64,000 nt of DNA from Roseateles oligotrophus. GTDB taxonomy: Bacteria > Pseudomonadota > Gammaproteobacteria > Burkholderiales > Burkholderiaceae_C. The position numbers and the translations under genes are program-made. Location of the stretch: assembly GCF_025717515.1 (NCBI RefSeq), contig NZ_JAJIRN010000003.1, positions 310,001 through 374,000 of the forward strand. The letters run 5' to 3'. Positions 43,937 through 50,970 of the stretch are shown piece after piece. The notes beneath the pieces were generated by a model, which was given only the letters and a program-made list of their open reading frames with translations, ran no database searches and had not been told where the DNA came from. Within the stretch, counting starts at the first letter, position 1. Each line of letters starts with the position of its first letter.

Positions 43937-44015
43937 ATTGTTCCCCCTAAAGATGTTGAAGATTGCCGGGCCCTGTTTTGTATAGGCCCAGCGGCGCGCC
44001 ATGATGCCGCAAAAA

Positions 44016-44033
44016 CCGTGACGTTTGTCACGG
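44016..44033. promoter_or_regulatory. palindromic operator candidate upstream of aqpZ
   Basis: Read toward aqpZ the element is CCGTGACAAACGTCACGG, a perfect inverted repeat with seven-base arms around AAAC. A TATACA that could serve as -10 begins about 31 bases downstream. It agrees at 16 of 18 positions with the element at 11407-11424. Confidence 0.5.
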
Positions 44034-44228
44034 GCTGACCCTTAGGCCGGCGCAGTTTGTCTAAGAAATTGAGAACAAGTGGCGTTTCCTGCGCCTCGAA
44101 GGGGCCCTATCCGATACCTCCTTTTTGGGGTTTGAAGTCTCGGCGAAGTTCTGGCCAAATCTGGCCGCGGCAAATAAAGAGGCAATCATGCCTCGGTGCC
44201 GAGACCTAATCGTCAAGGGAGACACAAC

Positions 44229-45110
44229 ATGAATGTTCGTTTCGCATCGCGCTCACAAGGCGCAGACAGCTCGGGCTCCACCAAGCTCTACGGCGCGGTC
44301 AGCACGGCCGCTTTGCTCAGCACTTTGTTGTTGACTGCCTGCGGGGGCAGCATCGTTGACGCCATCGTCGATGACCTGACCTGCGCCGTCACCAATTGCA
44401 AAGATTCCGCGACGCTGAACGTTGACGAGATCAGCCCGAAGTTCACGATCACGCAGGACAACGGTCAGGTCAAGGTCGAAGGTCGACTCGGCTACACCGC
44501 CAACCTGATCACCGTTGTGCATCCCAGTGGCAACGACCATATGTCGGCCAGTGTTGGCAATCAGCGCCGTGATCTCGTGGACGAAGACGGCAAACGGACG
44601 AACTACAGCGTGTTCTTGGCCGATGCCAGCGAGCAGCCGATAGTGACCGCCAACTTTGTGCGCGGCAGCGAGCTGCACGGCAGCACCGTCACCATGCCCA
44701 AGACCTTCAGCGTGGTGGCGCCCCTCGGCACACCGCTGATCAGCCGCTCAAGCGGAAAATTCCTGGTACAGATGAGTCAGCCCTATACGAACCAGATGGG
44801 GGTCAGCGTCAGCATGGTCTGCAAGCGCGTCGACGGCAGCAGCTTCGATAGCAAAAACGAGCCGCTCAGAAGTTCGCCCGAAGGCAATGGCTACCGCATC
44901 AGCACCTTGGACTTGGATATGGCTTTGAATCACGCCAGCGTCAATTTCAATCCCAACAGCCCTAACGCCTCATTGGTGCAGACTTGCGAGCTGACGTTTC
45001 AATGGATGCTGAGCCAGACCGGCACCGTTGCCTCGACGCTGAACCGCCACAGCAGCATCGTGGCCGAGCGCCGTGTCAAACAAACGGCAAGTTACGACGC
45101 CCGGCTCTGA
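44229..45110 (+). CDS. lipoprotein of unknown function
   Basis: A 293-residue protein. The N-terminus has a basic stretch and a hydrophobic core ending in lipobox LLTACGG, so it is probably lipid-anchored. Behind it an acidic Cys-containing segment (DDLTCAVTNC) is followed by beta-rich sequence with no known domain. AAGGGAGA lies before ATG 44229, which I chose over the longer reading. It is a lone gene. Its end overlaps bufC by 19 bp, tail to tail. The 290 bp before it are shared with the aqpZ promoter. Confidence 0.8.
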   Translation: MNVRFASRSQGADSSGSTKLYGAVSTAALLSTLLLTACGGSIVDAIVDDLTCAVTNCKDSATLNVDEISPKFTITQDNGQVKVEGRLGYTANLITVVHPSGNDHMSASVGNQRRDLVDEDGKRTNYSVFLADASEQPIVTANFVRGSELHGSTVTMPKTFSVVAPLGTPLISRSSGKFLVQMSQPYTNQMGVSVSMVCKRVDGSSFDSKNEPLRSSPEGNGYRISTLDLDMALNHASVNFNPNSPNASLVQTCELTFQWMLSQTGTVASTLNRHSSIVAERRVKQTASYDARL

Positions 45111-45886
45111 AGGCGGCTCAACAGGCCACGCGCCAGCCAGCCTTGCAGCGCCTGCACGACCGCAGCGGCGGCAAGGTCAGTGCCGACCGTCAGCGCTGCC
45201 TGCTGGCAAATCGCCTCAAAGTCTTGACCGGCCGCCAGCGCCTGCAGCAACTGCGCTTCCAGCGGCTCAAGCGAGCGCCAATAGGTCTCCAGCCCTTCGC
45301 GCCAGACCAGCAGATGATGATCCAGGGCGGCCGGCTCGCGCAGCTCGGGTGCGGGTTCCGCTGAGTCCGGGTCATGGGCGCGCAGGGCGCTCCATGCCGG
45401 CTCGATCGCCCAGTTCATCGCCAGCAATCGCACGCTGGGGTGGAGCTCGAATACCAGCGCAGGCCATTCCTCGGGCGCAAGCGCCGCCAGCTGCGCGAAG
45501 CTCAAAAGAGCTGCATCGGCACTATCGAAGGCCGCGCGCAAGGCCCAGTCCATGCGGGCAAAGTCGACCATGCAGGGATGCGTCAGCTCGGCGGCAAACT
45601 CATCCGCCATGAAGTCGGCCAAGCTCTCGCCAAACCAGCGTATCGAAGGCTGGCGCGACGGCCGCGCTTGAATATAGGCCAGGCCCAAGGCGTCAAAGCT
45701 TTCGTCACCGAGCGCGCGTTGCAGGACGGTGAAGTTATCGCGCAGCGCCGCCAATAAGCGGGCGCGAAAGGCCTCCCGATAGACCGTCAGGCCTACGTTC
45801 GGTTCTTGTAATAAATGCTCCGCCGCCGAGCCCTCGCAGACCGCCGCCTGCAAGCCTTGTTGCTGCGACCTCAGCACCGCGCTCAT
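45092..45886 (-). CDS. bufC: BufC, DUF2063-family partner of the bufferin maturase
   Basis: A 264-residue protein of the HvfC/BufC group. The N-terminal domain reads LTVYREAFRARLLAALRDNFTV and FDALGLAYIQARPSRQPSIRWFG, the standard DUF2063 pattern that recognises the precursor peptide. The C-terminal half is a winged-helix-like region. BufC forms a complex with the MNIO enzyme BufB and presents the precursor to it. The ATG overlaps the bufB stop by 4 bp. It is the last gene of bufABC. Confidence 0.92.
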   Translation of the reverse strand: MSAVLRSQQQGLQAAVCEGSAAEHLLQEPNVGLTVYREAFRARLLAALRDNFTVLQRALGDESFDALGLAYIQARPSRQPSIRWFGESLADFMADEFAAELTHPCMVDFARMDWALRAAFDSADAALLSFAQLAALAPEEWPALVFELHPSVRLLAMNWAIEPAWSALRAHDPDSAEPAPELREPAALDHHLLVWREGLETYWRSLEPLEAQLLQALAAGQDFEAICQQAALTVGTDLAAAAVVQALQGWLARGLLSRLQSRAS

Positions 45887-46758
45887 GCGGCCAGGGCGCT
45901 TGTTGCACCTTGCTGGTCGCGTCCGATGGTCTGCGCGAGCCGCCGCGCCTGATCCAGCTCCAGCAACAGATCGGCCAGCGGCGGAATCGCGTCATCGCGT
46001 TCAATCATCGTCGGCCGCTCGCCAATGCGCCGCAGCGTGTAGCCATAGAGTTGCCAGACCGCATCGCAGATCGGGTGGTCGTGGGTATCGATGACGATGT
46101 CGCCACGGTCCTCATGGCCGGCCAAATGGATTTGCACCACTTGGCTGGCCGGCATCAGATCGATATAGGAGCGCGCATCAAAACCATGATTGCGGCTGGA
46201 GACATAGACGTTATTGACATCCAGCAGCAGCTTGGCCCCGCTGCGCCGCAGCAACTCGGCCACAAACTCGGCCTCGCTCATTTCGTCGGTGGCGAAGCGC
46301 ACATAGCTGGACACGTTCTCCAATACCAGCGGCCGCTGCAGCAGCTCTTGCACTTGGGCGATGCGGGGGGTCAGGTGTTGCAGCGCTGCCTCGGTATAGG
46401 GCATGGGCAGCAGATCGTGCAGATTGCGGTGGTCAACACCGGTCCAGCACAGGTGGTCCGAAATCCAGGCCGGCTCGACACGAAAGGCCAGCGCTTTCAG
46501 CTCACGCAAGTAATCGAGGTTCAGGGGGTCGGAGCTGCCAATCGACATCGACACGCCATGCATCACCATCGGGTAGTCGCGCCGGATACGGTCCAGATGG
46601 TGCAAGGGCTTGCCGCCGGGCACCATGTAATTCTCGGAGATGATCTCCAGCCAGTCGGGCTTCAGCGCGGCCGGCAGCGGCGCATCGGGGTTGGCAAAGT
46701 CGGCATAGTGTTCGGTCCTGAGTCCGAGGCCGAAACCCTGCAGGGGGCTGTGTGGCAT
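45883..46758 (-). CDS. bufB: BufB, DUF692-family multinuclear iron-dependent oxidase (MNIO)
   Basis: A 291-residue TIM-barrel enzyme. Family marks are GFGLGLRTEHY, WLEIISENYM, MVMHGVSMSIGSSDPL, WISDHLCWTG, LLLDVNNVYVSS and QIHLAGHEDRGD. MNIOs use two or three iron ions to oxidise cysteines of a precursor peptide; in bufferins the product is thiooxazole. GGAG precedes the ATG at 46758; the open frame extends further upstream but only in antisense of bufA. It starts 58 bp after bufA. Confidence 0.95.
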   Translation of the reverse strand: MPHSPLQGFGLGLRTEHYADFANPDAPLPAALKPDWLEIISENYMVPGGKPLHHLDRIRRDYPMVMHGVSMSIGSSDPLNLDYLRELKALAFRVEPAWISDHLCWTGVDHRNLHDLLPMPYTEAALQHLTPRIAQVQELLQRPLVLENVSSYVRFATDEMSEAEFVAELLRRSGAKLLLDVNNVYVSSRNHGFDARSYIDLMPASQVVQIHLAGHEDRGDIVIDTHDHPICDAVWQLYGYTLRRIGERPTMIERDDAIPPLADLLLELDQARRLAQTIGRDQQGATSALAA

Positions 46759-46816
46759 TGAATGCTCCAAATCGCAAAGGGTCGAGCAGCAAGTACCGCC
46801 CGCCCATGCCGCACTT

Positions 46817-47077
46817 TTAGCCGGCAACCTTGCCGCCGGCCTTGGTGCACTCCTCGGCCGACTTCTTGCTGTTCCAGCCTTGGCCCTTGCAGCTGTTGTG
46901 GCCTTTGCATTCGCTCTTGGCGGTCTTGCAGTCGGAGGTGCCCTTGCAGCTGTTGATGCCGGAACACTTGACCATGCCCTCATCGGCAGCTTGGGCGACG
47001 GTCGCGAAACCGGCGGTGGCGAACAGTGCAGCCGCGGCGGCCGCGATGCTCAGGCCAGTCTTGATAGATGCTTGCAT
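46817..47077 (-). CDS. bufA: BufA2-like bufferin precursor (periplasmic metallophore)
   Basis: An 86-residue precursor with a Sec signal peptide (LSIAAAAAALFATAGFATVAQA). The mature part contains six cysteines in a repetitive array: KCSGINSCKG, SDCKTAKSECKG, HNSCKGQGW and EECTKAGG. This is the BufA2 pattern. In the established system BufB and BufC convert selected cysteines to thiooxazoles in the cytoplasm. The peptide is then exported and buffers copper or other thiophilic metals. TGGAG lies before ATG 47077. Which Cys are modified here is unknown. Confidence 0.93.
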   Translation of the reverse strand: MQASIKTGLSIAAAAAALFATAGFATVAQAADEGMVKCSGINSCKGTSDCKTAKSECKGHNSCKGQGWNSKKSAEECTKAGGKVAG

Positions 47078-47156
47078 GTGAATCTCCAGTATGGTGATGT
47101 TCAAGTTGACTTAGAAAAGCACGCTGGGCATAGAAGCCTTGTTGCGTACCCATCTG

Positions 47157-47184
47157 GGTCGTGATGCTGCGCCACTTCCTTACA
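47157..47184 (-). promoter_or_regulatory. possible ECF-type promoter of bufABC
   Basis: On the minus strand TAAGGAA and CGAC are about 15 bases apart, roughly 80 bp upstream of the bufA start. GGAA with CGxC is the general shape of ECF sigma promoters, which drive bufferin operons in other bacteria. The match is loose and could be chance. Confidence 0.25.
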
Positions 47185-47256
47185 ACGCGCAGCAAATATT
47201 TTGAAATTGCCGCCGCAGGCTAAAGTGCAGCCCAGCCAGCCCCGCCCACATAGAAC

Positions 47257-48558
47257 ATGCCCGACCAACGTAAAACTTCTTCCGACCGTCGGCCCTGGGC
47301 CTGGATCCCCTCGCTCTATTTCGGCCAGGGCCTGCCCTATGTGGTGGTGATGACGCTGTCGGTCATCATGTACAAGAACCTGGGCCTGTCCAATACCGAG
47401 ATTGCGCTCTACACCAGCTGGCTCTATCTGCCTTGGGTGATCAAGCCGCTATGGTCGCCCTTGATCGAACTCCTGGGCGCCAAGCGGGGCTGGATCGTCG
47501 CGTTGCAATTCCTCATCGGCGCGACGCTGGCGCTGGTGGCCTTGAGCATTCCGGGGCCGCGCAGTTTTCAGATGACGCTGGCGATGTTCTGGTTGATGGC
47601 CTTTGCTTCGGCCTCGCATGACATTGCCGCCGATGGCTTTTATATGTTGGCGCTGCCGCAGCGCAGCCAAGCTGCTTTTGTGGGGGTGCGCTCGACCTTC
47701 TATCGCCTGGCCAATATCGGGGGGCAAGGCGGTCTGGTGTATCTGGCCGGCGAATTGCAGGAACGCACGGGAAGCATGCAGCAGGCCTGGACGATGGTGT
47801 TCTTCTTGCTGGCGGGGATATTCCTGCTGCTCGGCAGCTACCACCACTTGATGTTGCCGCGCCCGGCCAGCGATTTGGTCGCCCAGACAAGGCGCGGCGG
47901 CAATGAGCTGTGGCGCGACTTTATCGAGGTCTTCGCGGAGTTCTTCCGCAAGCCCGGCATCGCTGTCATCATCGGCTTCCTGTTGCTCTACCGCTTCCCC
48001 GAGGCGCAACTGCTCAAGCTGGCCACGCCCTTTTTGCTTGACCCGGCCACGGCCGGCGGCCTCGGGCTTTCGACCAAACAGGTCGGCATCGCCTATGGCA
48101 CGGTCGGGCTGATTGCGCTGACGCTGGGCGGTCTCTTGGGTGGCTGGGTGATCTCGCGTATCGGCCTGAAGCGGGCGCTGTGGCCGCTGATCTTGCTGAT
48201 GCATGTGCCCAACATCATGTTCCTGCTGATGGCGCTCGGCAGGCCCAGCGACTTGGCTCTGATCAGTGCGGCCTTGGCCGTCGAACAATTCGGTTATGGC
48301 CTCGGCTTCACCGCCTATCTGATGTTCATGATTCTGGTCGCCGATGGCGAACACAAGACGGCTCACTATGCGATTTGCACCGGCTTCATGGCGCTGGGCA
48401 TGATGATTCCCGGCATGTGGAGCGGCTGGTTGCAGCAGCAACTCGGCTACACGATGTTCTTCGCCTGGGTGATGGTGGCGACGCTGCCTTCTTTTGGCTT
48501 GGCCGCGTTGATCAAGATTCCGGCCGACTTTGGCAAGAAAACCGAGCCCGACGAATGA
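47257..48558 (+). CDS. AmpG-like muropeptide permease
   Basis: A 433-residue inner-membrane MFS protein with twelve helices. LYFGQGLPYVVVMTLSVIMY, SWLYLPWVIKPLWSPLIELLG and FASASHDIAADGFYMLAL are typical of AmpG-like permeases. It is the first gene of a three-gene unit with a secreted glycosyl hydrolase and a peptidoglycan amidase, which strongly suggests import of GlcNAc-anhydro-MurNAc or similar wall fragments. Its stop overlaps the next start (ATGA). The 179 bp upstream are shared with the divergent bufA. Confidence 0.92.
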   Translation: MPDQRKTSSDRRPWAWIPSLYFGQGLPYVVVMTLSVIMYKNLGLSNTEIALYTSWLYLPWVIKPLWSPLIELLGAKRGWIVALQFLIGATLALVALSIPGPRSFQMTLAMFWLMAFASASHDIAADGFYMLALPQRSQAAFVGVRSTFYRLANIGGQGGLVYLAGELQERTGSMQQAWTMVFFLLAGIFLLLGSYHHLMLPRPASDLVAQTRRGGNELWRDFIEVFAEFFRKPGIAVIIGFLLLYRFPEAQLLKLATPFLLDPATAGGLGLSTKQVGIAYGTVGLIALTLGGLLGGWVISRIGLKRALWPLILLMHVPNIMFLLMALGRPSDLALISAALAVEQFGYGLGFTAYLMFMILVADGEHKTAHYAICTGFMALGMMIPGMWSGWLQQQLGYTMFFAWVMVATLPSFGLAALIKIPADFGKKTEPDE

Positions 48559-50081
48559 GCTTGCCGCGTCGCTCGTTCTTGCTGGCCGGTGCCGGGCTGA
48601 GCGCCTGCCAGCCCCTGCCCATAGTCAGCCCGCAGGCCGGCCTTAAATTTATACCGGCGCCGGAACTGGCAAGCCTCGCACCCGCCGCGCCGCGCGAGTT
48701 CCGTGCCGCCTGGGTCGCAACGGTCGCCAATATCGACTGGCCGAGCCGCAAGGGCCTGAGCAGCGCCGAGCAGCAGGCCGAAGTGCTGGCCTTGCTGGAC
48801 CGTGCCAGCGCGCTGAAGCTCAACGCCCTCATCCTGCAGGTGCGCAGCAGTGCGGACGCGATCTATCCGTCCGCGCTGGAGCCCTGGAGCGAGTATCTGA
48901 GCGGCACGCAGGGGCAGGCGCCGGAGCCGTTTTATGACCCGCTCGCGCTATGGGTCAGCGAGGCACACCGGCGCGGCATCGAGCTGCATGTCTGGTTCAA
49001 CCCGTTTCGGGCCCGTCAGAGCGGAGCGAAATCGGAGGCCGCTCCTCAGCACCTGAGCCGCAGCCAGCCGACTTGGGTCAAGCCATATGGCGATCAGCAG
49101 TGGATAGACCCCGGCGAGCCCGCCGCCGCCGAGCATGCGCTGGCGGTGATTGCCGATGTCTTGCGGCGCTATGACGTCGATGCCGTTCATATCGACGATT
49201 ACTTTTATCCCTATCCGCTGCAAGATGGCGTCAGCAAGCAGGAGATCGACTTCCCCGACGAGCCGGCTTGGCGGCGCTACAGCCAAGCCGGAGGGGCGCT
49301 GGAGCGCGCCGACTGGCGTCGCCAAAATGTCGATCGGCTGGTGCAGCGCATTGCCGAACTGGTGAAGCGGACAAGGCCCTGGGTGCGCTTTGGCATCAGC
49401 CCCTTCGGCCTGCCCAAACCGGCGCTGCGCCCGGCAGGCATTGCCGGCTTCAGCCAATATGACAAGCTCTATGCCGATGTGGAGCGCTGGCTGAACGAGG
49501 GCTGGCTGGACTATCTGGCGCCGCAGCTGTACTGGCCGATCGCGCAAAAACCGCAGGCCTTCGGCGTCTTGCTGGACTATTGGCATGGCCAGAATCTGCA
49601 GGGCCGGCATATTTGGCCGGGCCTGTTTACCAGCAAGCTCACCGACAAGCCGGACAGTTGGCCGCTGGACGAAATCCTGCAGCAGATCGAACTCGTGCGG
49701 CAGCGTCGGCCGGGCAGCGGCCATGCGCATTTCAGCATGGTGGCCCTACTGCAAAACCGCCGCGGCCTCGCGGACGCGTTGATGGCCGGGCCTTACGCCG
49801 AGGCCGCCTTGGTGCCGGCAACGCCTTGGCTGGTCGAAAGGGAAGCGCCCGCCGCCGCCGTGCCGCAGCTGAAGCCGGTCTTTGTCGGCGCCGAGCCGCT
49901 GTTCGAGCTGAGCTTCGCGCCGGATCGGCGTCACTCGGTCTGGCTGCTTTATGGCGAGCGCTGGGAATTGCGCTTGTGCGGCGAGTTGCTGAGGGTGCCG
50001 GCGGCCGGCTTGAGCGGGCTGGTGGTCTCGGCGCTGAACCGGATAGGCCAGGAAGGGCCAAGATTGGGGCTGCGCCTGTGA
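48555..50081 (+). CDS. lipoprotein glycosyl hydrolase, GHL10/YngK type
   Basis: A 508-residue protein with a lipobox (LAGAGLSAC). The core is the GHL10 (DUF187) fold: FRAAWVATVANIDWPSR, LKLNALILQVRSSADAIYPS, GIELHVWFNPFRAR, VDAVHIDDYFYPYP and YLAPQLYWPIA. Members are predicted to cut glycans of the cell wall or of N-glycan-like polymers. The Asp pair in HIDDYF and the Glu/Asp after strand 8 are likely catalytic. It is coupled to the AmpG-like gene by a 4 bp overlap and followed by an amidase, so peptidoglycan is the likely substrate. Confidence 0.9.
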   Translation: MSLPRRSFLLAGAGLSACQPLPIVSPQAGLKFIPAPELASLAPAAPREFRAAWVATVANIDWPSRKGLSSAEQQAEVLALLDRASALKLNALILQVRSSADAIYPSALEPWSEYLSGTQGQAPEPFYDPLALWVSEAHRRGIELHVWFNPFRARQSGAKSEAAPQHLSRSQPTWVKPYGDQQWIDPGEPAAAEHALAVIADVLRRYDVDAVHIDDYFYPYPLQDGVSKQEIDFPDEPAWRRYSQAGGALERADWRRQNVDRLVQRIAELVKRTRPWVRFGISPFGLPKPALRPAGIAGFSQYDKLYADVERWLNEGWLDYLAPQLYWPIAQKPQAFGVLLDYWHGQNLQGRHIWPGLFTSKLTDKPDSWPLDEILQQIELVRQRRPGSGHAHFSMVALLQNRRGLADALMAGPYAEAALVPATPWLVEREAPAAAVPQLKPVFVGAEPLFELSFAPDRRHSVWLLYGERWELRLCGELLRVPAAGLSGLVVSALNRIGQEGPRLGLRL

Positions 50082-50115
50082 CAATCGCGGGCTACCTGGA
50101 AGCCCACAGACAATC

Positions 50116-50970
50116 ATGCAGAAAATCTCCAAAATCCTAATCGGCGCGGCCAGCGCTGCCTTGCTCAGCGCCTGTTCCACCCTGCCCAGCGGCCCCAAGA
50201 TCGACCGCAGCTACAGCTCCGTCGCCCAAGACAGCCGGGCGCTGTTCCTGATCTTGCATTACACCGCGCTGGACTGGGAGAAATCGCTGAAGGTCCTGAG
50301 CACCGGTGGTCAGGTCAGCGCCCATTACCTGCTGCGCGATGAGCCGGCCATCAGTTACCAGCTGGTCGATGAGAACCGCCGCTCCTGGCATGCGGGCCAG
50401 AGCTTCTGGGCCGGCAATCAGAATCTGAACGCCGCCTCGATAGGCATCGAGATCGTCAACGCCGGCTATACCGATGGCCCGTTGGGCCGCGTCTATGCGC
50501 CTTACCCCGAAGCACAGGTGCAGGAGTTGATTCTGCTGATCAAAGACATTGTTGCTCGCCACCAAATCCGGCCCGACCGCATCATCGGGCATGCCGATAT
50601 CGCGCCCGGCCGCAAGCAGGACCCGGGCCCGCTGTTCCCCTGGCGGCGTCTTGCCGAGGCCGGCATCATTCCCTGGCCCGCCCCCGCACAGGTCACGGCC
50701 AAGTTGCCCCTGTATGAGGCGCTGCCGCCGGATGCCGCCTGGTTCCAGGACAAGCTGGCACGCGTCGGCTATCAGGTCCCCCGCAACGGCGAGATGGACA
50801 CGCAGACCAAGAGCGTGATCGCCACCTTTCAGATGAAGTACCGACCCAGCGACTACAGCGGCAACGCCGATGCCGAGACGGCCGCCCTGCTTGATGTGGT
50901 GACGACCCCCGGCGGCATGTTGCTGGCCGTGCCCAACGCGGCCCCAACTCCCTACGTCTCACGCTGGTAG
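50116..50970 (+). CDS. AmiD-like N-acetylmuramoyl-L-alanine amidase lipoprotein
   Basis: A 284-residue outer-membrane lipoprotein (lipobox LLSAC). The amidase_2 domain has zinc ligands His48 (FLILHYTAL), His159 (IIGHADIAPGRK) and Asp169, with Glu112 in IGIEIVNAG. A C-terminal peptidoglycan-binding domain (VIATFQMKYRPSDYSGN) follows. The enzyme splits the bond between MurNAc and L-Ala in wall fragments. As third gene of the unit, 34 bp after the GHL10 gene, it completes a scavenging set: degrade outside, import through AmpG. Confidence 0.94.
   Translation: MQKISKILIGAASAALLSACSTLPSGPKIDRSYSSVAQDSRALFLILHYTALDWEKSLKVLSTGGQVSAHYLLRDEPAISYQLVDENRRSWHAGQSFWAGNQNLNAASIGIEIVNAGYTDGPLGRVYAPYPEAQVQELILLIKDIVARHQIRPDRIIGHADIAPGRKQDPGPLFPWRRLAEAGIIPWPAPAQVTAKLPLYEALPPDAAWFQDKLARVGYQVPRNGEMDTQTKSVIATFQMKYRPSDYSGNADAETAALLDVVTTPGGMLLAVPNAAPTPYVSRW

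Follow-up and report, generated by a model that had tools for sequence, protein, structure and literature searches.

A Buf2-type bufferin operon of Roseateles oligotrophus and its predicted control in trans by an extracytoplasmic function sigma factor

The stretch of DNA analyzed here, referred to as the window, comprises 64,000 nucleotides of Roseateles oligotrophus (assembly GCF_025717515.1, contig NZ_JAJIRN010000003.1, here C23; C23:310001-374000) and carries on its minus strand a canonical Buf2 bufferin operon, bufA-bufB-bufC, preceded by a promoter-like element, TGTAAG-N17-CGAC, that recurs ahead of both Buf2- and Buf1-type operons. According to the explanation that we favor, and which we consider very probable as a whole, the Buf2 precursor would carry thiooxazoles at Cys2-5, would sequester copper in the periplasm, and would be produced under the control in trans of an extracytoplasmic function (ECF) sigma factor. 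The operon as such is one more member of a large and known family, whose six-cysteine core is already standard, and it is the proposed regulation in trans by a Buf1-linked ECF sigma factor on which a specialist might act: the conserved ECF-type promoter allows the activation of Buf2 operons to be tested directly and cheaply, and its sequence word names two further proteins, a Sel1-repeat and a thioredoxin-like protein, that may work together with bufferins. The induction of a related operon of Legionella was left open in earlier work (PMC5413113). Statements attributed to published work refer to the excerpts of the cited papers covered here. The features of the locus are as follows (window coordinates).

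46817..47077, minus strand: bufA, an 86-residue BufA2-family bufferin precursor (NF050166, Cu_RiPP_BufA2, 95 bits, cut-off 60)
46988..47077, minus strand: predicted Sec signal peptide of BufA, 30 residues, cleavage at AQA|ADEG, assigned by eye
46820..46987, minus strand: predicted mature BufA core, 56 residues with six Cys; Lys after Cys2-5, none after Cys1 or Cys6
45883..46761, minus strand: bufB, a 292-residue MNIO maturase (DUF692/MbnB_TglH_ChrH) with Asp256-Asp257 in an ERDD motif (NF050167, MNIO_BufB, 370 bits, cut-off 310)
45092..45886, minus strand: bufC, a 264-residue DUF2063-domain MNIO partner of the PME1 type (PF09836, 67.9 bits, cut-off 27.2)
45883..45886, minus strand: 4 bp overlap (ATGA) of the bufB stop and the bufC start, read from the sequence
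47158..47184, minus strand: ECF-sigma-like promoter element TGTAAG-N17-CGAC, 81-107 bp 5' of the bufA ATG, assigned from motif counts and its likeness to sigma-F promoters

The original prediction of a three-gene operon with a BufA2-type precursor, including its coordinates and the coupling of bufB and bufC by the ATGA at 45886-45883, is borne out by the family models, as NF050166, NF050167, PF05114 (358 bits for BufB, cut-off 25), and PF09836 all score above their cut-offs. All three genes are intact; bufA starts with the ATG at 47077, directly preceded by a GGAG resembling a ribosome-binding site (by eye), ends at 46817, and is separated from bufB by 55 bp. The nearest solved chain to BufB by sequence is 3bww_A (E=4.4e-45), followed by 8hci and the MbnB chains. 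BufC stays below the cut-off of NF050145, the equivalog of the EGKCG/oxazolin partner HvfC (47.3 versus 142 bits) and is not filed as HvfC, so that its membership rests on PF09836 together with gene order; it likewise falls short of PF22106 (24.2 versus 27 bits) and has no match in the PDB by sequence at E<=0.1. BufA itself matches no Pfam-A family at E<=0.01 and hence not PF10048, the DUF2282 family of Buf1 precursors; a PF10048.16 tag, precomputed with another Pfam version, is attached to many of its listed homologues and speaks for some similarity between the Buf1 and Buf2 families. Two PDB matches of BufA (E 0.3-0.4) were taken as chance. The operon had also been called complete, which is right for bufA, bufB, and bufC; no DoxX gene was found among the adjacent genes examined. 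That the locus consists of chance open reading frames or is a decayed, non-functional operon is practically negligible as an explanation: nothing was found in its favor, and it is contradicted by three intact genes in conserved order, with bufA and bufB above their family cut-offs and bufC above that of PF09836. We regard the assignment to Buf2, made from the sequence, as solid.

The core of BufA is equally conventional. Its cysteines lie at positions 38, 44, 50, 57, 63, and 77 (gaps of 5-5-6-5-13), behind a hydrophobic N-terminus with a putative AQA|A cleavage site (by eye and from an alignment of 29 sequences), and the mature peptide is predicted to have a monoisotopic mass of 5679.57 Da. 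Among 1381 candidates, 1351 homologues were recovered at E<=0.001, and close ones bear the names Roseateles, Paucibacter, and Pelomonas; core comparisons were made with the best 120 of these 1351, a selection that leans to near relatives. The six-Cys framework is present in 120/120 of them, with identical gaps in 118 (five of which contain extra Cys outside the framework) and a last gap of 12 in the other two. Among the 115 listed homologues with exactly six Cys, the residues directly before Cys6 are most often EE (31), followed by DE and AE (21 each). It had been proposed that the combination of six Cys, KG spacers, and a final EEC may represent a pattern not yet described. This cannot be upheld, since EEC is the commonest form around the sixth Cys, the spacing is standard, and six Cys is the published norm: the Buf2 family is named Buf_6/12Cys, and six Cys are conserved in 90 % of Buf2 precursors (PMC12452194). 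A BufA2 match above the cut-off occurs in 27 of 99 genomes, that of the window included, and both the order bufA-bufB-bufC and the common strand are the same in all 18 loci for which wide flanks around a BufA2 match were retrieved. Some relatives contain tandem BufA2 precursors (L014, L015, L062, L065); in L014, L015, and L062, the strict promoter word described below occurs only 5' of the second gene of the tandem.

The distribution of lysines among these cysteines is the basis for predicting the modification sites. In the 120 listed homologues, Lys follows Cys2, Cys3, and Cys4 without exception and Cys5 in 118, while it follows Cys1 in none and Cys6 in 12. The MNIO-PME1 pairs studied so far install 5-thiooxazoles with a loss of 4 H per Cys, giving products that bind copper, and in the Cys-Lys class of these enzymes, to which BufA2B2C2 belongs, an Asp next after the catalytic one is proposed to hold the Lys of the substrate (BufB2-Asp251; PMC13097082). 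BufB of the window has the Asp pair of this class at 256-257, and when one BufA2 locus per genome was aligned for 26 genomes, DD was found in 20 and DA in two, while four could not be judged; the MNIO of a Buf1 operon (L049) has DT at this site. In Buf1 bufferins, the central Cys carry the modification, and a disulfide links the first to the last (PMC12452194). Taken together, the Lys pattern, the Asp pair of BufB, and the Buf1 disulfide lead us to the prediction of four thiooxazoles, most likely at Cys2-5, with a disulfide as the more likely fate of Cys1 and Cys6. Two points weigh against this prediction, namely the DA pair of BufB in two BufA2 loci and the derivation of the disulfide solely by analogy.

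The obvious alternative, a real operon in which all six Cys (or another subset) are modified, yielding six thiooxazoles and no disulfide, can draw on the strict conservation of all six Cys in the listed homologues, on FonA and HvfA, captophorins whose EGKCG repeats are all modified (PMC13097082), and on MmrA of Microbulbifer, all six Cys of which are modified (PMC12538549). It nevertheless appears rather unlikely, given that the conserved Lys thought to be read by the Cys-Lys class of MNIO enzymes follows Cys2-5 only, with 0/120 and 12/120 at the two outer positions, and given the disulfide between the first and last Cys of Buf1. The captophorins fontiphorin, oxazolin (HvfA), and gonophorin moreover differ from the system in the window. 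Installation of thiooxazoles by MNIO-PME1 pairs has been demonstrated for the former and is predicted for the latter; captophorins have Lys-Cys (EGKCG) repeats and a Phe at position 250 of FonB, whereas the window operon combines Cys-Lys with an Asp at that site, and FonBC did not process NACKG repeats (PMC13097082).

Returning to the four-ring prediction, we infer the following sequence of events for the peptide. BufA would be made with a Sec signal peptide, a cytoplasmic BufB-BufC complex would convert core cysteines to 5-thiooxazoles, and the modified peptide would be exported to the periplasm, where it would sequester copper present in excess and perhaps further soft metals. That the product is an exported, modified peptide that binds metal had been anticipated before and is probably correct, judging from the family models and from the published biochemistry of relatives. 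Copper as the relevant metal is suggested by the bufferins studied so far, which enhance growth under copper stress (PMC12452194). Related operons have, in contrast, been found to respond to gold and copper (PMC5413113, PMC10304878), to chromium and cadmium (PMC3511200), or to hypochlorite (PMC7907618), and in two relatives the promoter word also precedes a thioredoxin-like gene, so the operon might mainly serve against a metal other than copper or against oxidative stress, with gold, chromate, cadmium, and hypochlorite as candidates. We judge this to be improbable in view of the copper phenotypes just mentioned. No copper genes were found among the immediate neighbors of the operon; no search farther out was made.

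The promoter element in the bufA leader begins at 47184, which the original prediction had given as the end of the locus. It resembles the consensus of sigma-F of Caulobacter, GTAACC-N16-CGAA, a factor that controls two operons of the DUF2282 type (PMC3511200), and in one relative (L009) this consensus is found letter for letter. Its conservation was assessed in the 300 bp 5' of 35 BufA2 genes of the order; these regions were obtained with a Cys-Lys sequence pattern over 60 loci, which gave 37 precursors, of which two duplicates were dropped, while loci lacking a match, such as L023 and L024, were left uncounted. GTAAG-N16..18-CGA precedes 23 of the 35 genes, whereas 200 shuffles gave 0.17 on average and three at most, and the reverse strand gave none; a looser form is present in 28/35 (shuffle mean 1.5). 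Outside the genus of the window, the strict word occurs in 13/24 regions (shuffle mean 0.17, max 2). When all two-box words were counted in 31 regions, using the first tandem precursor per locus and thus dropping four second genes, three of them with the strict word, TGTAA-N17+-1-CGA ranked first with 22/31. A sigma-70 scan of 44900-47400 yielded one minus-strand match (47392-47365), located inside the divergent major facilitator superfamily gene, and no terminator, and Rfam at gathering scores gave no match in 44000-48600. No mention of a promoter shared by Buf1 and Buf2 operons was met in the literature searched, which is not to claim its absence from print.

In the 5.76-Mb genome of the strain (55 contigs), TGTAAG-N17/18-CGAC has seven matches. 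The four with N17 are found ahead of the operon in the window, a Buf1 operon (C45:162177-162203), a Sel1-repeat gene, and a gene for a response regulator. Besides its one BufA2 match, this genome encodes two MNIO enzymes and two DUF2282 Buf1 precursors. The Buf1-type operon on contig C45 consists of genes for a DUF2282 precursor, MNIO, DUF2063, and DoxX (L057, L003, L054), the latter being the only DoxX observed beside a bufferin operon of this genome. The second Buf1 precursor (L053 5187-5474, minus strand) lies on contig C34, which is without an MNIO match, and follows the gene of a small secreted protein that looks YHS-domain-like by eye.

Across 18 genomes of the genus, 34 of the 42 N17 sites stand just before Buf1 (14), Sel1 (11), Buf2 (7), or thioredoxin-like (2) genes, and eight elsewhere, whereas none of the 18 N18 control sites examined (34 exist in the genus) precedes a gene of these classes; the corresponding Fisher p for 34/42 is 2e-9, a value that treats related genomes as independent. 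What counts for the weight of the Sel1 class is its recurrence in 11 genomes. The Sel1-repeat protein looks secreted (L061 787-1458, minus strand, in the genome of the window; L140-L145, L153, L154, L157, and L117 in relatives; 11/18 genomes), and the thioredoxin-fold protein of two genomes looks periplasmic (L148 1621-2034, minus strand, and L152).

As sigma genes are reported to occur in Buf1 and to be absent from Buf2 clusters (PMC12452194), control of the latter in trans is suggested; no statement on Buf2 control was met in the excerpts of this paper or of the other literature covered. A candidate for the sigma factor is encoded on the contig of the window, about 175 kb from the operon.

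C23:181223-181906: ECF sigma gene, above the cut-offs of TIGR02943 and NF009173

Overlapping the end of this gene is one of 63 amino acids that scores above the cut-off of the anti-sigma family NF052368, whereas NrsF, the anti-sigma factor of the Caulobacter system, has no match in the genome at E<=0.001. Of the 18 genomes of the genus, 14 contain a homologue of the ECF protein at E<=1e-20, and in 12 of these the identity is >=78 %. In seven of the 18 genomes, the ECF gene and the Buf1 operon are divergent, and the Buf1 promoter word lies either in the interval separating them or where the ECF match begins; for the other seven ECF-bearing genomes, that of the window included, the short flank examined revealed no Buf1 gene. 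The family also adjoins Buf1 operons in L049 and L033. An N17 site is found in all 14 genomes with an ECF homologue at E<=1e-20, but in only one of the four without (p=0.005, uncorrected for relatedness). Beside Buf2 operons of the genus, in contrast, homologues of the ECF genes of this genome were found in none of 10 loci, each spanning about 12 kb. A short ECF-like stretch (L054 4407-4610, minus strand; 30 % identity over 69 amino acids, E=3e-5) is divergent from the Buf1 operon of the strain's own genome and may be what remains of a lost sigma gene; the intact copy resides on another contig. A second word, GTAAG-N16-CGAC, inside the ECF genes was considered as a promoter and dropped, as it can be read as coding sequence for sigma region 4.

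From the promoter word and the linkage of sigma and Buf1 genes, we infer that the TIGR02943-family ECF sigma factor, together with its small anti-sigma partner, would switch on bufA transcription in trans, which makes it the likely reader of the bufA promoter. It would read the same TGTAAG-N17-CGAC before Buf1 operons, Buf2 operons, Sel1-repeat genes, and, in two relatives, thioredoxin-like genes. More broadly, the Buf1 and Buf2 operons of the Burkholderiales and the Sel1-repeat and thioredoxin-like genes may form one envelope-metal-stress regulon that depends on the TIGR02943 ECF factor via TGTAAG-N16/17-CGAC, with the Buf2 operons of the genus driven in trans by the Buf1-linked sigma factor, a proposal that we hold to be probable. 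Precedents for ECF control of such operons exist with sigma-F of Caulobacter (PMC3511200) as well as with RpoE2 of H. influenzae, which has a 67-residue anti-sigma factor and, like meningococcal sigma-E, controls DoxX-bearing clusters; the RpoE2 cluster also includes COG3220 (DUF692) and DUF2063 genes (PMC7907618).

Several findings speak against this proposal. The strict word is missing from 12 of the 35 BufA2 upstream regions (five of these have the looser form), and within the genus the whole word is no commoner than backward controls, whose frequency equals or exceeds that of the word in each genome. The Sel1 and thioredoxin classes, furthermore, were defined after the matches had been seen. 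Two genomes (G008 and G011) have N17 sites before Buf1 operons and ECF homologues that are only 57 % and 49 % identical, while another (G002, 76 % complete) has a Buf1 N17 site and no ECF homologue at E<=1e-20. When homologues are restricted to >=78 % identity, the link weakens to sites in 12/12 genomes with the factor versus 3/6 without (p=0.025, uncorrected for relatedness). In L077, an ECF homologue adjoins a Buf2 operon, so that Buf2 operons are not always without one. Finally, there is no direct proof in Cupriavidus metallidurans that RpoQ drives the Buf1-type gig operon, and deletion of rpoQ raised gig expression in metal-treated cells (PMC10304878).

Some of these observations, in particular the case of RpoQ and the weaker link under strict orthology, are also compatible with another regulator, be it a different ECF factor or a metal-responsive activator, reading the promoter, in which case the TIGR02943 factor would merely be a neighbor of Buf1. 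Several further ECF-like sigma genes in the genome point in the same direction, as does the fourth N17 site of the genome, which is located some 35 bp 5' of the start of an OmpR-type response regulator gene (L058 770-1492, minus strand). We nonetheless find such a scenario doubtful, because the ECF gene is divergent from Buf1 in the seven genomes mentioned, because all 14 genomes with a homologue have a site as compared to one of four without, and because sigma-F and RpoE2 control such operons in Caulobacter and H. influenzae, respectively. Control by the TIGR02943 factor thus remains the preferred reading.

Comparison with described systems places the operon closest to the Buf2 bufferins (PMC12452194, NF050166), with which it shares the signal-peptide-like N-terminus, six Cys, the gene order, and an MNIO enzyme with a DUF2063 partner, and from which it differs in the lack of DoxX noted above. 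While PMC12452194 gives the presence of sigma genes in Buf1 and their absence in Buf2 clusters, an ECF-like promoter shared with Buf1 and the proposed wiring in trans are described here. The sigma-F-controlled Buf1 system of Caulobacter is alike in its MNIO and DUF2063 genes and in a promoter of the form GTAA..-N16-CGA; it differs in its DUF2282 precursor with four Cys and in having sigF and nrsF (CC3253, CC3252) numbered next to one of the two operons (PMC3511200). The gigPABT/rpoQ locus of C. metallidurans combines a bufferin-type operon with a divergently oriented ECF gene (PMC10304878), like the Buf1 loci of the seven relatives. The genome of the window differs in that its intact ECF gene does not adjoin a bufferin operon, and the operon in the window is of the Buf2 type.

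Tail to tail with bufC, and overlapping it by 19 bp, lies a lipoprotein-like gene (44229-45110, plus strand) that has no Pfam or NCBIfam match at E<=0.01 and homologues of which are found near the operon in 6/18 loci. Divergent from bufA (47257-50970, plus strand) are genes for an AmpG-like transporter, a GHL10 hydrolase, and an AmpD-like amidase, a set reminiscent of peptidoglycan recycling, and 11 of the 18 loci likewise contain, within the stretch retrieved, an AmpG-like gene divergent from bufA.

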